A DNA stretch of 64,000 nucleotides from positions 124,001 through 188,000 of the forward strand of contig DUVP01000032.1 in assembly GCA_012840975.1 (NCBI GenBank), read 5' to 3'. This DNA comes from Mogibacterium sp. (lineage in GTDB: Bacteria > Bacillota > Clostridia > Peptostreptococcales > Anaerovoracaceae). A program made the position numbers and the translations under genes. Positions 10,042 through 17,093 of this stretch are shown one piece after another (the stretch's first letter is position 1; every line of letters begins with the position of its first letter). The notes under the pieces are model-generated. The model had not been told where the DNA came from. It did no database searches and worked only from the letters and a program-made list of their open reading frames with translations.

Positions 10042-10578
10042 TTAAAGCTCCACTCCGAAACCTGACTTATACAGAACTATATCACCTTCAGCCCTTGTCT
10101 TATTCATATCTATAACTCTTTGATTTTCCGATCCCCTGTATGCCAGTTCAAGGTTCTTGAGAGCCTCAACAAATTTTCCGTCTACAAGAATATCTGTTAA
10201 ATCAAGCAGGGCGTCAGTTGAAGAATCCTTTCTGTCTTTAAGCTCTTCATAAGTATAACCGGAATAGCACATGAGATTAAGTCCCTGTTCTTTTACCCCT
10301 TTGGCAAGCTCAAGCAAAGCTTCAGTCTGCTCAAAAGGCTCTCCTCCGGAGAACGTCACTCCTTTAATATGCGGATTTCGAACTATATCATCAAAGACCT
10401 CGCCCACAGTAACATCGTAACCCCCTTTGAAGTCATGAGTCTGCGGATTATGACATCCGGGGCAATTATGTTTACAACCCTGAACGAATGCAGCATATCT
10501 GAAACCCGGACCGTCAACTATAGATTCCGGCTCTACCCCGCTCATTCTTATAATTTTGCTTCTATCGTAATTTATCAT
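10042..10578 (-). CDS. nrdG: Anaerobic ribonucleoside-triphosphate reductase activating protein
   Basis: 178 aa radical-SAM activase. The cluster motif C-x3-C-x2-C is GCKHNCPGCHNPQ (Cys35, Cys39, Cys42), followed by the SAM-contacting TFSGGEPFEQ. It generates the glycyl radical on NrdD. It is not next to nrdD here: the DUF4143 ATPase and a strong terminator lie between, so nrdG probably has its own promoter (a TACAAT -10-like box lies about 45 nt upstream) and heads the operon running to rluB. Length is normal. Confidence 0.93.
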   Translation of the reverse strand: MINYDRSKIIRMSGVEPESIVDGPGFRYAAFVQGCKHNCPGCHNPQTHDFKGGYDVTVGEVFDDIVRNPHIKGVTFSGGEPFEQTEALLELAKGVKEQGLNLMCYSGYTYEELKDRKDSSTDALLDLTDILVDGKFVEALKNLELAYRGSENQRVIDMNKTRAEGDIVLYKSGFGVEL

Positions 10579-10672: not shown

Positions 10673-11953
10673 TTAATCTTTTAAACAACCAATAGGAATA
10701 ACCAATACACCATCATCACGCCTATAGCCGTAACGAGTAGCAGTAATAAGTAATTTCAAATCCGGCAGACGAATAGGATTTTGTTTTGCATTTTTGTTAT
10801 ACTCTCTCACTAATCTTTCAATTTCACATAAATGTTTGGCTCCCTCTTCGACTCCGTACTCTCCAAGCTTTATCTCTATGAGCGCATATCTTCCATCATT
10901 CAAATGCAGTACTGCATCTGCTTCTAAGCCTAATCTATCATGGTAATATGACAGATGACCGTCATTATTTGATGAATAAATTTTAAGGTCTCTTATACAC
11001 AATGATTCGAACAAAAAACCGAGAGTTTTATAATCCTTGTCAAAGTATTCCGGAGACACACCAAAGGCTGCAGTTGCAATAGAAGGGTCTATAAAGTTTC
11101 TTTTCTGTGAAGACCGGATTGAGGTTTTTGATCTGATTGCGGGACTCCATGCACCAACATTTTCTATAATCATCAACTTTTCCAGCGCAGATAAATAATC
11201 ATAATAACTCTGCCTGGACATTTCGCAGGTCGCATTGATGTCTGCCAAAATAGTTTTCGTTTCAGCCAAGGTACATAAATTTCGAGCATAAGATTTTAAA
11301 ATTGCTTTCGCCCATTGAGGATTGCGCTTCACACTGTCTATGTTGGAAATATCTACATTGCAAGTCTGGTTAAAAAGATCTTTTGCTATAGCAAGTTGAG
11401 CTCTGGAGGTTTTTCTATTCAAACTTGCCGGCCAGCCTCCTCTGCAAATTGCAAATTTAATTTCATCTATTGTCAAATCGGAATGACATCCGTCAAATAA
11501 ATCCGGTTTATCAAATAAATTTTTAAGCGAGACTTCTCCACTTGATTCTCCGCTTTCAAAAAGACTCATTGGGTACATCTTGAGCCTCGAGATTCTAAGT
11601 GTACCGGTATGAGGTGTCTTTACTGTGTTTGAGGTTGAACCCGTTAAAATATATTGTCCTGCTTCTCCTGTATCGTCAATATCTTTTCTTATCGCACCCC
11701 ATATCTTAGGAGCATCCTGCCACTCGTCAAACAGTCTGGGTTTTTCTCCCTTTAATAAGTCCGAAGGACGTGTGTTGGCAATTATAAGATAGTTCTCACG
11801 CTCATCTTCGTTTTGAAATTCTACTACGCTTTTTGCTTTCTGCTTAGCTGTTGTTGTTTTCCCACATCCCTTTGGACCCTCAATAAGCGTAGCTCCAAAA
11901 GCTTCCAATTTAAAATCAAGTTGCTTGTCAACTATTCTTTTTCTGTATTCCAT
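10673..11953 (-). CDS. AAA family ATPase with DUF4143 domain
   Basis: 426 aa. Walker A EGPKGCGKTTTAKQ lies near residue 25, a Walker B-like RLFDEWQDAPKIW near 75, and sensor-like ILTGSTS near 102, followed by the DUF4143 C-terminal domain (LIEIKLGEYGVEEGAKHL resembles a nuclease-like fold). These AAA_14/DUF4143 proteins are common, often multi-copy in anaerobes, and functionally unclear. It sits as a stand-alone unit between nrdD and nrdG, preceded by tandem repeats, which suggests insertion into an ancestral nrdD-nrdG pair. It is not needed for ribonucleotide reduction as far as is known. Confidence 0.85.
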   Translation of the reverse strand: MEYRKRIVDKQLDFKLEAFGATLIEGPKGCGKTTTAKQKAKSVVEFQNEDERENYLIIANTRPSDLLKGEKPRLFDEWQDAPKIWGAIRKDIDDTGEAGQYILTGSTSNTVKTPHTGTLRISRLKMYPMSLFESGESSGEVSLKNLFDKPDLFDGCHSDLTIDEIKFAICRGGWPASLNRKTSRAQLAIAKDLFNQTCNVDISNIDSVKRNPQWAKAILKSYARNLCTLAETKTILADINATCEMSRQSYYDYLSALEKLMIIENVGAWSPAIRSKTSIRSSQKRNFIDPSIATAAFGVSPEYFDKDYKTLGFLFESLCIRDLKIYSSNNDGHLSYYHDRLGLEADAVLHLNDGRYALIEIKLGEYGVEEGAKHLCEIERLVREYNKNAKQNPIRLPDLKLLITATRYGYRRDDGVLVIPIGCLKD

Positions 11954-12228: not shown

Positions 12229-12396
12229 TTATCCTCTCTTGAGGCTGTGCTTTACTCTGTCTTCCACCTCGGATCTCTTTCCGTTGTTGAATCTGTCGAG
12301 TGTTCCTACCAGGTATCCTGTGATTCTTCTGATTCTTTCAAACTCGACTCCTTTTCCTACCTGTCCGTTTATATTCTTTACTCCATTGATGTTCAT
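12229..12396 (-). CDS. Separate glycyl-radical (C-terminal) fragment of anaerobic ribonucleotide reductase
   Basis: A 55-aa gene too short for the ORF track. Translation gives GVEFERIRRITGYLVGTLDR followed by FNNGKRSEVEDRVKH. This matches the last part of class III NrdD proteins, where R-x-x-GYL holds the radical glycine (RRVCGYL in phage T4 NrdD) and the protein ends in a GK-x2-E-x3-RVKH helix. The radical residue would be Gly27. The start has an excellent site (GGAGGTAATATA) and lies 84 nt after the nrdD stop on the same strand. The large NrdD chain lacks this motif, so the two products probably assemble into one enzyme. A sequencing frameshift does not explain it, because a stop, an A/T-rich spacer and a fresh ribosome site intervene. 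Confidence 0.88.
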   Translation of the reverse strand: MNINGVKNINGQVGKGVEFERIRRITGYLVGTLDRFNNGKRSEVEDRVKHSLKRG

Positions 12397-12480
12397 TATA
12401 TTACCTCCGTCTTTCTGTATATATTATATTCTTTTTTTCTTAATTGAAAACTAAAAATTGGTTTATTATATTTTTTGTTA

Positions 12481-14757
12481 TCAGCGATTGCAGTCACATG
12501 GTACCGGCACGCTCGGATATTTCATCCTTAATTCATCAAGTCTTTCTACCGGAACCGGTTCTCCTTCACGTCTGCCGCAGCGAGGACATACATCATCGAT
12601 AATTCCTGTATACCCGCATACCGGATCTCTGTCTACAGGATGATTGACCGATCCGTATCCTATGCCTTTCTCCTTCATGAATCTGATAATCTGTTCGAAC
12701 GCTTCCGGATTTTTTGCCGTATCTCCATCAAGTTCCACATAACTTATATGTCCTGCGTTTGTCATGCTGTGGTAAGGAGCTTCTATTTCCAGTTTTTCAA
12801 ACGCTCCGATTGGAAAGCTTACAGGGATGTGGAAAGAATTCGTGTAATAATCTTTATCCGTCACACCCGGGATTGTACCGTATTTCTCCGCATCTATTTT
12901 GACGAATCTCCCGGATAAACCTTCTGCCGGCGTAGCAAGAAGTGTAAAATTGAGTTTTGATTCCGCACTTCTTCTGTCGCATACATCTCTCATGTGCTGG
13001 ACAATCTCTAGCCCGAGTTTTCTTGCCCTTTCATCCTCTCCGTGGTGTTTTCCGATCAGCGCCTTAAGAGTTTCGGCAAGCCCTATGAATCCTATCGAAA
13101 GCGTCCCGTGTCTGAGAAGGTCAGCTACACTGTCATCAGGACCTATTCTATCCGAATCGATCCATATTCCCTGTCCCATAAGGAAAGGATAGTTACGCCC
13201 TCTCTTGCTGCACTGGATCTTGAATCTGTGCAAGAGCTGCCTGACAACGAGATCCATGACATTATCCAGCTTCTTATAGAAAACATCGATATCCCTGTTT
13301 GCTTCTATACCGAGCCTGGGTAAATTGATCGATGTGAATGAAAGATTTCCTCTACCGCAGGTAACCGCCTTTGAAGGATCATTTACATTGGCTATTACCC
13401 TTGTACGACATCCCATATATGCAACTTCCGTGTTGTAATCACCTTCTTTATAAAAAGCTTTGTTAAACGGTGCATCCAGAAAACTGAAGTTAGGAAAAAG
13501 TCTCTTTGCACTACATGTAATTGCCAGCTTGAATAAATCGTAGTTAGGATCTTCCGGATTATAGTTAATACCTTCTTTAACCTTGAATATCTGTACAGGG
13601 AATATCGGTGTCTCTCCATTACCGAGTCCGGCTTCTGTTGCTAAAAGGAGATTTTTAATTACCATTCTTCCTTCCGGAGATGTGTCCGTTCCGTAGTTGA
13701 CCGAGCTGAACGGCACCTGAGCTCCCGCTCTTGAATTCATGGTATTCAGATTATGGATAAGAGCTTCCATCGCCTGATATGTGGTCTTGTCCGTTCTTGC
13801 CCATGCAGCTTCTATTGCCTGCACATTGCACCTTACAAGAATTTCTCTGTCGATTCCGTATTTATTTTCGGAAGAATCATACCACTTACCAAGTTCTTCT
13901 CCATAAGTTTCAGCCGTGCTGAGAGTTGGCTTAACAGCTTCCGTCCTTATTCTTTCAGCGATTTCCTTTGCCTCCGCATAAGGCATCTCTGTCTTGGCGG
14001 CTATGATTTCTGTCAATGCGGAAAAATACTCTTTGACATATGTTCTTGCAACTCCGGGTGCCATAGCATAATCGAAGTTCGGAACCGACTGCCCGCCGTG
14101 CATTTCATTCTGGTTAGCCTGAATTGCAATACATGCAAGCGATGCATAGCTCATTATAGATTGCGGCTCCCTCAGATATCCGTGGCCTGTGCAGAACCCG
14201 TCTTCAAATAATTTGATGAGATCAATCTGGCAACATGTTTCCGTCAACATGTAGAAATCCTTATCATGGATATGGATATCTCCGTTAATATGGGCCTTTG
14301 CTATATCCTTAGGCAGAACATAATGATCCACGAAATATTTTGCACCCTCGGATCCGTATTTGAGCATAGTTCCCATTGAGGTATCCCCGTCGATGTTGGC
14401 ATTCTCTCTCTTGATGTCGGCATCTTTGGAGTACGAATATGTAAGCTCATTGTATATGTTCATCAGATCCGACTCTGCTTCTCTGATCTTTGCATGCTCT
14501 GCACGATAGAGAATATAAGCCTTGGCAGTTTTCTCATAATCGTATTTTATCAGTATACTCTCGACGATATCCTGTACCTGTTCTACCGTACAAGTCTCTC
14601 CGTCCAGACGCTCAACTACTTTCTTCGTAAGATAAGTAAAATCGATACTGGACATTACCTCGCCTTCAACCGCTTTATTCGCAGCATAAATTGCATTAAA
14701 GATTTTAGACTCATCAAACGGTACTTCTGTTCCGTCTCTCTTAATAATAGTTTTCAT
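12481..14757 (-). CDS. nrdD: Anaerobic (class III) ribonucleoside-triphosphate reductase, large chain without radical loop
   Basis: 758 aa. The N-terminal ATP-cone (MKTIIKRDGTEVPFDESKIFNAIYAANKAV, residues 1-90) is the allosteric site. The body has the NrdD core (INGDIHIHDKDFYMLTETCCQIDL, FSSVNYGTDTSPEGR, YYTNSFHIPV). The C-terminus has part of the zinc motif (DPVCGYTG, CPRCGR) but then diverges into VERLDELRMKYPSVPVPCDCNR and stops, without the RxxGYL glycyl-radical loop or the RVKH end. That segment is encoded by the next gene. The enzyme makes dNTPs without oxygen, activated by NrdG. A NrdR-controlled promoter lies upstream. Confidence 0.94.
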   Translation of the reverse strand: MKTIIKRDGTEVPFDESKIFNAIYAANKAVEGEVMSSIDFTYLTKKVVERLDGETCTVEQVQDIVESILIKYDYEKTAKAYILYRAEHAKIREAESDLMNIYNELTYSYSKDADIKRENANIDGDTSMGTMLKYGSEGAKYFVDHYVLPKDIAKAHINGDIHIHDKDFYMLTETCCQIDLIKLFEDGFCTGHGYLREPQSIMSYASLACIAIQANQNEMHGGQSVPNFDYAMAPGVARTYVKEYFSALTEIIAAKTEMPYAEAKEIAERIRTEAVKPTLSTAETYGEELGKWYDSSENKYGIDREILVRCNVQAIEAAWARTDKTTYQAMEALIHNLNTMNSRAGAQVPFSSVNYGTDTSPEGRMVIKNLLLATEAGLGNGETPIFPVQIFKVKEGINYNPEDPNYDLFKLAITCSAKRLFPNFSFLDAPFNKAFYKEGDYNTEVAYMGCRTRVIANVNDPSKAVTCGRGNLSFTSINLPRLGIEANRDIDVFYKKLDNVMDLVVRQLLHRFKIQCSKRGRNYPFLMGQGIWIDSDRIGPDDSVADLLRHGTLSIGFIGLAETLKALIGKHHGEDERARKLGLEIVQHMRDVCDRRSAESKLNFTLLATPAEGLSGRFVKIDAEKYGTIPGVTDKDYYTNSFHIPVSFPIGAFEKLEIEAPYHSMTNAGHISYVELDGDTAKNPEAFEQIIRFMKEKGIGYGSVNHPVDRDPVCGYTGIIDDVCPRCGRREGEPVPVERLDELRMKYPSVPVPCDCNR

Positions 14758-14840: not shown

Positions 14841-14888
14841 ACACTATATATTGTATCTGTGTCGTTATGCCGTGTCAATATATTGTAT
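14841..14888 (-). promoter_or_regulatory. nrdD promoter with two NrdR boxes
   Basis: Read on the minus strand, a -35 TTGACA (14873-14878) and -10 TACAAT (14850-14855) are separated by 17 bp. Each overlaps a NrdR-type box: ATACAATATATTGACA over the -35 and ATACAATATATAGTGT over the -10, with centres 32 bp apart, three helical turns. This is the classic arrangement for repression by the ATP-cone regulator NrdR, whose gene is not in the window. The rest of the 255-bp gap to arginase shows no gene. Confidence 0.85.
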
Positions 14889-16127: not shown

Positions 16128-16673
16128 TTAACCGAAATATCTCTTCAAAAGACCTTCGAATGCTCTGCCGTGTCTTGCCTCGTCTCTTGCCATCTCATGA
16201 ACAGTGTCGTGAATTGCATCAAGACCCTGCTCCTTAGCAAGCTTAGCGAGCATTGCTTTACCGGCACAGGCACCGTTTTCCGCTTCAACTCTCATTTCGA
16301 GATTCTTCTTTGTGCTGTCGGTCAGAATTTCTCCGAGCAGCTCTGCAAATCTTGAAGCATGATCCGCTTCTTCGTAAGCTGCTTTCTCCCAGTAGAGACC
16401 GATTTCCGGATATCCTTCTCTGTGAGCAACTCTCGCCATTGCAAGGTACATGCCGACCTCTGTGCACTCACCTGTGAAGTTTGCTCTCAATCCTTCAAGA
16501 ATTTCTTCGCTTACACCCTGAGCAACTCCTACGACATGTTCAGCTGCCCAGCCCATCTCTCCTTCTTTCTGCTCGTTGAATTTCTCTGCAGGAGCCATAC
16601 ACTGTGGACACTTTTCAGGTGCCTGTTCTCCTTCGTGTACGTAGCCGCATATTGTGCATACCCATTTAGTCAT
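16128..16673 (-). CDS. Reverse rubrerythrin (N-terminal rubredoxin, C-terminal ferritin-like di-iron domain)
   Basis: 181 aa. A rubredoxin-type iron site, [20 protein letters not shown], occupies residues 6-25. It is followed by a four-helix ferritin-like domain with E-x-x-H pairs ([34 protein letters not shown]). This domain order defines reverse rubrerythrins, which act as NADH-dependent peroxide and oxygen reductases in anaerobes through rubredoxin/flavoprotein partners. It lies 33 nt after the Fur/PerR-type regulator, so the two are probably co-transcribed from the promoter with the Fur-like palindrome. Confidence 0.93.
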
Positions 16674-16706: not shown

Positions 16707-17093
16707 TTATTGTGATTTTTCCTTCATGCAATTCGAACATATCCCATAGAACTGAGAGCTACAGCTTTCTATCCTGCCCTCAAATTCTTTTTGTACTGTT
16801 ATCAGCATCTCAGTGTTGTTGTCAGGCATATCCAGAACACAACCGCAGGCTTTGCAGAAGAAATGAGAATGCGGTTCCGGGTTGTGATCAAAGCGTGCCG
16901 GTCCGTTTAAGCTGATTCTTGCAATTTCTCCTCTTTCAACCATACGATTGAGATTCCGATAAACAGTTGCGACACTTAAGCTGGGAAACTCTTCTTTGAG
17001 TTCCAAATACAAAGTTTCCGCGGTAGGATGATCATATCTACCATGAAGTTTCTTTCTTATTGCTTCCCTTTGTCTGCTGAATTTTGTTTTCAT
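16707..17093 (-). CDS. Fur family transcriptional regulator, PerR-like
   Basis: 128 aa. The N-terminal winged helix (LYLELKEEFPSLSVATVYRNLNRMVERGEI) is followed by the metal region DHNPEPHSHFFCKACG and a second CxxC (CSNC) that together form the structural zinc site. The coupling with reverse rubrerythrin suggests a peroxide sensor (PerR) rather than an iron regulator, but Fur and PerR cannot be separated by eye with certainty. A 25-bp Fur/PerR-like palindrome 60 nt upstream points to autoregulation. Confidence 0.85.
   Translation of the reverse strand: MKTKFSRQREAIRKKLHGRYDHPTAETLYLELKEEFPSLSVATVYRNLNRMVERGEIARISLNGPARFDHNPEPHSHFFCKACGCVLDMPDNNTEMLITVQKEFEGRIESCSSQFYGICSNCMKEKSQ

Follow-up and report, generated by a model that had tools for sequence, protein, structure and literature searches.

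Many strict anaerobes rely on class III (anaerobic) ribonucleotide reductase (RNR) as their essential source of dNTPs, and oxygen destroys this enzyme at its glycyl radical. In NrdD of Prevotella copri this radical resides on Gly711 (PMC11226230). Spare-part proteins that supply a new radical domain have been shown only for pyruvate formate-lyase (PFL) and are considered possible for other glycyl radical enzymes (Andorfer 2021, PMC8683613). A search of open-access papers yielded none that describes an NrdD radical subunit as a protein of its own.

The nrdD locus analyzed here lies in a 64,000-nucleotide stretch of Mogibacterium sp. DNA (hereafter the window). It resembles class III NrdD of the PRK07111/TIGR02487 type (P. 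copri, PDB 8p23) in its ATP-cone, NRDD barrel, zinc site, MGCR finger loop, FERIRRITGYL...RVKH radical loop and NrdG partner, and differs from it in that the radical loop and the tail are encoded by a separate gene (Table 1). A sequence-only reading of the window had already placed the loop in a 55-aa gene of its own, 84 nt downstream of nrdD, and both open reading frames were recovered on the minus strand. Judged from sequence, the two genes very probably encode a functional two-chain class III RNR.

Table 1. Features of the nrdD locus and its surroundings, in window coordinates.
Feature	Position	Strand	Remarks
nrdG, radical-SAM activase	10042..10578	-	TIGR02491, E 2.8e-45, above cut-off
AAA_14/DUF4143 gene	10673-11953	-	between small radical gene and downstream nrdG
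Separate glycyl-radical chain, 55 aa (MNINGVKNINGQVGKGVEFERIRRITGYLVGTLDRFNNGKRSEVEDRVKHSLKRG)	12229..12396	-	PF13597 532-562/562
Intergenic stretch, 84 nt, AT-rich	12397..12480	-	several in-frame stops
GGAGGT ribosome site of small gene	12403-12408	-	few nt before ATG
nrdD core	12481..14757	-	758-aa class III RNR large chain
NrdR-box-like palindrome ACACTATATATTGTAT	14841..14856	.	one mismatch to ACACWATATNTWGTGT
Promoter-like site TTGACA-17-TACAAT upstream of nrdD	14850..14878	-	11/12 consensus matches, consensus only

Profile searches matched the large chain to positions 1-531 of the 562 positions of PF13597 (E 8.9e-189) and its front to the ATP-cone model PF03477 (E 2.6e-20), in agreement with the ATP-cone and catalytic core read earlier from the letters; the NCBIfam model PRK07111 was covered from 2 to 711 of 746 (score 1065, above the cut-off). 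The core features comprise a 10-stranded barrel, C175/C176 (CCQ), the finger loop MGCR at 448-451 and a zinc site formed by C714/C724/C727, and in a 37-row alignment the core cysteines (CCQ 175-176, MGCR) and the zinc motif were invariant. The zinc motif (CGY..CPRC) had been described as only partial; since intact PRK07111-type NrdDs show the same three-Cys form, it is not truncated by the split. The 758-aa protein ends in “...ERLDELRMKYPSVPVPCDCNR”, before the glycyl-radical loop, and the RxxGYL loop absent from its C-terminus is located in the 55-aa gene. This tail is not the unrelated sequence it had been taken for: because split NrdDs throughout the main clade share the motif E(R/K)L.ELR..(Y/F)P..P, the tail is a feature of that clade rather than random sequence. 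In a separately split clade (family f58: L119, L148, L152-L156, L160) another large-chain tail, S/NTT(I/L)GYHGD..EE.DR..N, is conserved and resembles a degenerate radical loop.

A comparison of the 55-aa sequence with PF13597 had been proposed as a check and returned the exact remainder of the model (532-562 of 562, E 3.2e-8); PRK07111 was covered from 706 to 744 of 746. The small chain carries only the loop, RITGYL...RVKH, and was matched by PF13597 and not by PF01228 (Gly_radical, the C-terminal domain of PFL). Its Gly27 is the predicted radical glycine. The large chain aligned to P. copri NrdD (8p23) up to chain residue 705 and the small-chain profile to chain residues 707-739 (E 2.4e-12). 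When an apparent four-residue offset in the 8p23 chain numbering was allowed for, Gly27 fell on Gly711 in the alignment and the break on about native residues 701-703. This alignment therefore places the cut after the zinc site and ahead of the radical loop.

Both genes share one frame in the window, with several stops between them. The small gene was confirmed to have its own ribosome site, and the candidate for a separate promoter of the small gene was no better than chance. Upstream of nrdD the promoter-like site and the NrdR-box-like palindrome overlap; the expected number of such palindromes in the window is 0.02. Within a few kb of nrdD the window also contains genes resembling those for rubrerythrin (16128-16673) and Fur/PerR (16707-17093); at another locus (L132, G013:C10) an extra radical-chain gene adjoins a rubrerythrin gene.

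Among the same-genus genomes the 1-531 plus 532-562 pattern was found in every full-length NrdD of the window type. Fused NrdDs in the same-genus genomes G031 and G034 were rejected as fused versions of this type, as they belong to other NrdD subclasses; NrdDs of other subclasses with a fused C-terminal thioredoxin/glutaredoxin-like domain were observed at L281 (G031) and L282 (G047). The 80 nearest NrdDs in GTDB genomes, which came from Mogibacterium-like, Lachnospiraceae and Oscillospiraceae genomes, were nearly all split, with the small gene just downstream, and cultured carriers included Coprococcus catus, Intestinimonas butyriciproducens, Anaerostipes, Catenibacillus and Marasmitruncus. 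The split arrangement is genus-wide and extends to many Lachnospirales and Oscillospirales, where the short NRDD-like fragments suspected in other Firmicutes are indeed present. The small gene, whose lack of conservation had been named as a ground for rejecting the two-chain reading, is conserved across the genus and beyond. Its dN/dS against relatives was approximately 0.04-0.18, and it is under purifying selection. An SD-like motif preceded 61 of 79 small genes, compared with 15-24% at random positions. Split NrdD arose repeatedly (at least 3-4 changes): about four changes between the intact and the split state were placed on the core tree, at least three of them on well-supported branches.

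These data bear on the explanation that the locus is a decayed or mis-assembled nrdD, interrupted by a nonsense change or an assembly error, while another RNR does the work. The common frame of the two window ORFs and the origin of the window genome from a MAG assembly are compatible with it; the recurrence of this organization in dozens of genomes that different studies obtained independently, the dN/dS of the small gene well below 1, the ribosome sites of the small genes and the lack of any other RNR match in 14 genomes (see below) render it very improbable. The assembly error considered in the sequence-only reading is excluded because dozens of independent genomes show the split.

It is also highly improbable that the two reading frames yield a single polypeptide through recoding or through intron or intein splicing, as in the split phage RNR genes, although introns, inteins and homing endonucleases are known to interrupt nrdD in phages (PMC3653736; PMC12363816). 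The relative frame of core and small gene was random in 75 related downstream pairs (23/29/23), and the distances between the genes were mostly 16-230 nt, far under intron or intein size, with one pair overlapping. Where relatives had both genes in frame, the gap sequence was unconserved and both flanking genes were conserved. The two genes are moreover unlinked in Marasmitruncus and in genus g244, and phages carry the loop alone.

The window genome is a MAG of 1.44 Mb in 37 contigs and is 80.7% complete. Within it no further NRDD match and no class I/II RNR match was found, hence no second intact nrdD of the kind that would speak against a two-chain enzyme; at 80.7% completeness a second RNR could sit in the missing part. 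In a sample of 108 genomes from one order, 53 bore a loop, in stand-alone form only (31), in fused form only (11) or in both forms (11). The core lacked the loop in 30 of the 31 stand-alone-only genomes, the remaining one (G348) being a contig-end fragment. In 14 genomes (G005, G024, G329, G355, G362, G364, G371, G389, G395, G407, G418, G419, G420, and G438; completeness 97-100%, no figure being given for G438) neither a PF02867 (class I/II) match nor another NRDD core was detected. Since the only RNR detected in these genomes consists of a core lacking the loop and a separate loop protein, the loop must, on this evidence, act in trans. In Marasmitruncus massiliensis the small gene lies 35 kb from nrdD, immediately before nrdG. 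The genomes with this sole RNR, the conservation and the unlinked genes strongly support the earlier proposal that the loop is a separate subunit which would act on NrdD.

A longer stand-alone loop protein of approximately 90-105 aa occurs alongside intact NrdD in G155, where its gene lies between nrdD and nrdG, and in G191, G142, G378, G383, G402, and others. The loci of this form (L113, L114, L116, L135, L225, L228, L263-L270, L275, and L276) often also have an intact NrdD. AlphaFold2 predicted an N-terminal beta-alpha-beta-beta domain (pLDDT ~80), for which no significant PDB match was obtained, and the conserved N-terminal motif reads VNV.GG.LS.KEI.AY...P...I..L.I.LDGDYVD..Y. The longer-form proteins tested against NCBIfam hit full-length NrdD models only and no dedicated model. 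In genus g244, G383 has an intact NrdD plus a stand-alone loop protein of ~100 aa; its sister species G407, G419, G395, and G364 have an NrdD cut just before TGYL and only an unlinked loop protein. The PF13597 match of the truncated g244 NrdDs ends at 539-540, and the residual ends differ in the three that were read (...RHERIKRIISESCSCND; ...RCERIPRIKV; ...SSERVARIKA). In our reading, the cis loop was here lost independently, after a trans loop had become available. In a separate lineage (G224, G260) a loop-less nrdD, a 102-aa loop protein and nrdG form a single run, which in G224 follows an nrdR-like gene.

Extra copies of the small gene in the same genus (L120-L130) adjoin TrbL-like, PrgI, T4SS coupling-protein and lipoprotein genes, i.e., conjugative modules, and elsewhere extra copies lie in prophage-like loci (G370). 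In IMG/VR 290 viral contigs were matched by the small protein of the window; a viral scan with intact NrdD as query gave no matches. The loop ORFs in the viral loci kept were stand-alone in 80 of 81 cases and fused in one. PF13597 was present in 40 whole IMG/VR records, which may be fragments, as loop only (35), split pair (4) or fused form (1); some of these phages may thus have a core outside the recorded sequence. The radical genes of these phages of anaerobes (IMG/VR loci L166-L252) encode 41-66 aa, sometimes ~100 aa, and often adjoin genes for terminase (L219, L220, L196, L197), endolysin (L173, L206) and structural or tail proteins (L169, L228, L179, L180, L190). On one viral-labelled IMG/VR contig of 54 kb (L242) a split NrdD has the reverse gene order, the small gene coming first, and is preceded by a DNA polymerase III alpha-like gene.

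The core-less copies on phages and conjugative elements are best read as putative supplies of fresh radical chain for the NrdD core of the host. They might alternatively be poison subunits, taking the place of the host's radical chain and thereby stopping host dNTP synthesis, as some element copies are divergent (RVTGYLSGDLSRFNN..RLEHG in L126-L128, RVQHG in L120). This is unlikely, as the RxxGYL glycine and the RVKH end are retained in almost every phage copy, and phages themselves require dNTPs.

In the two-chain enzyme that we propose, the large chain would provide the ATP-cone for allosteric control, the cysteine-bearing catalytic barrel and the zinc site, and the 55-aa chain would contribute the glycyl-radical loop and the C-terminal tail, entering the barrel in trans. 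NrdG would take hydrogen from Gly27 of the small chain, either free or bound, and the loop would hand the radical on to the active-site cysteine. We infer that the small chain binds the core and that the radical forms on it. An AlphaFold2 model of the read-through chain (core, 28 junk residues and small chain, all in frame), built from 37 rows, had a mean pLDDT of 67 and approximately 30 in the loop, too low to show docking. A radical chain cleaved by oxygen could be replaced cheaply without remaking the 85-kDa core, and phages or elements would bring a fresh small chain for the host core. Exchange of the oxygen-cleaved chain would be the most attractive benefit, and we hold this exchange and the delivery by phages and elements to be slightly favored.

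The small chain may instead be an obligate structural subunit with no repair role, the split being neutral or regulatory through radical-chain dosage or dissociation as an off-switch. We regard this as the less probable but still a considerable possibility. The large chain in the window has no cis loop to replace and several lineages split independently; furthermore, dATP renders the radical domain of P. copri NrdD mobile (PMC11226230), so that a loosely held loop would be tolerated. Against a purely structural role, the extra unlinked copies, the mobile-element copies, the core-less phage copies and the loop proteins beside intact NrdD all point to a use for surplus chains. The earlier suggestion of a replaceable part resembling GrcA has indirect support from these extra chromosomal, element and phage copies and from the takeover by an unlinked loop in g244; it does not fit the chain in the window, which is obligate and not a spare because the core lacks a cis loop.

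In many gut anaerobes this essential enzyme is encoded as two proteins, and phages and mobile elements carry its oxygen-sensitive, radical-bearing tip of ~55 residues by itself, so that the tip has the look of a subunit that can be exchanged. A separate radical subunit would permit cheap replacement and offer a handle for activity control, and a radical residue on a 6-kDa protein would be easy to study by EPR or NMR. The idea of spare parts beyond PFL thereby becomes open to test in cultured gut species, among them Coprococcus catus and Intestinimonas butyriciproducens, and the copies on phages hint at a short, widespread metabolic gene whose product could act only with a host enzyme. With moderate confidence we favor the broader reading in which a dissociable, exchangeable radical chain evolved several times in much of the Clostridia and is carried by phages and elements to activate or reactivate a loop-less or oxygen-cleaved host core at infection or transfer; it would be the NrdD counterpart of YfiD and Y06I, but as a normal subunit and not only an emergency spare.

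Several described systems share part of this arrangement. Split class II RNR (NrdJa/NrdJb; PMC4520616, PMC9669993) likewise has its catalytic chain in two genes, the class of enzyme being different. Phages, too, have nrdD in several pieces where introns, inteins or homing endonucleases divide their RNR genes (PMC3653736; Jug phages, PMC12363816); however, these genes are interrupted at varied places, are often spliced and yield no stand-alone radical chain, whereas the gap in the window comprises 84 unconserved nt without a splicing element. GrcA/YfiD of E. coli and Y06I of phage T4, the PFL spare parts, are similar as small stand-alone glycyl-radical proteins that should serve, in trans, a barrel lacking its loop, and Y06I also as a phage-carried radical chain. 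In contrast to GrcA/YfiD, the small chain described here shares homology with NRDD rather than with the radical domain of PFL, its partner core in the window has no radical domain of its own (intact NrdD accompanies a loop protein in G155, G191, and G383), and the NrdD loop proteins have in most cases 41-66 aa, compared with the ~14 kDa of YfiD.
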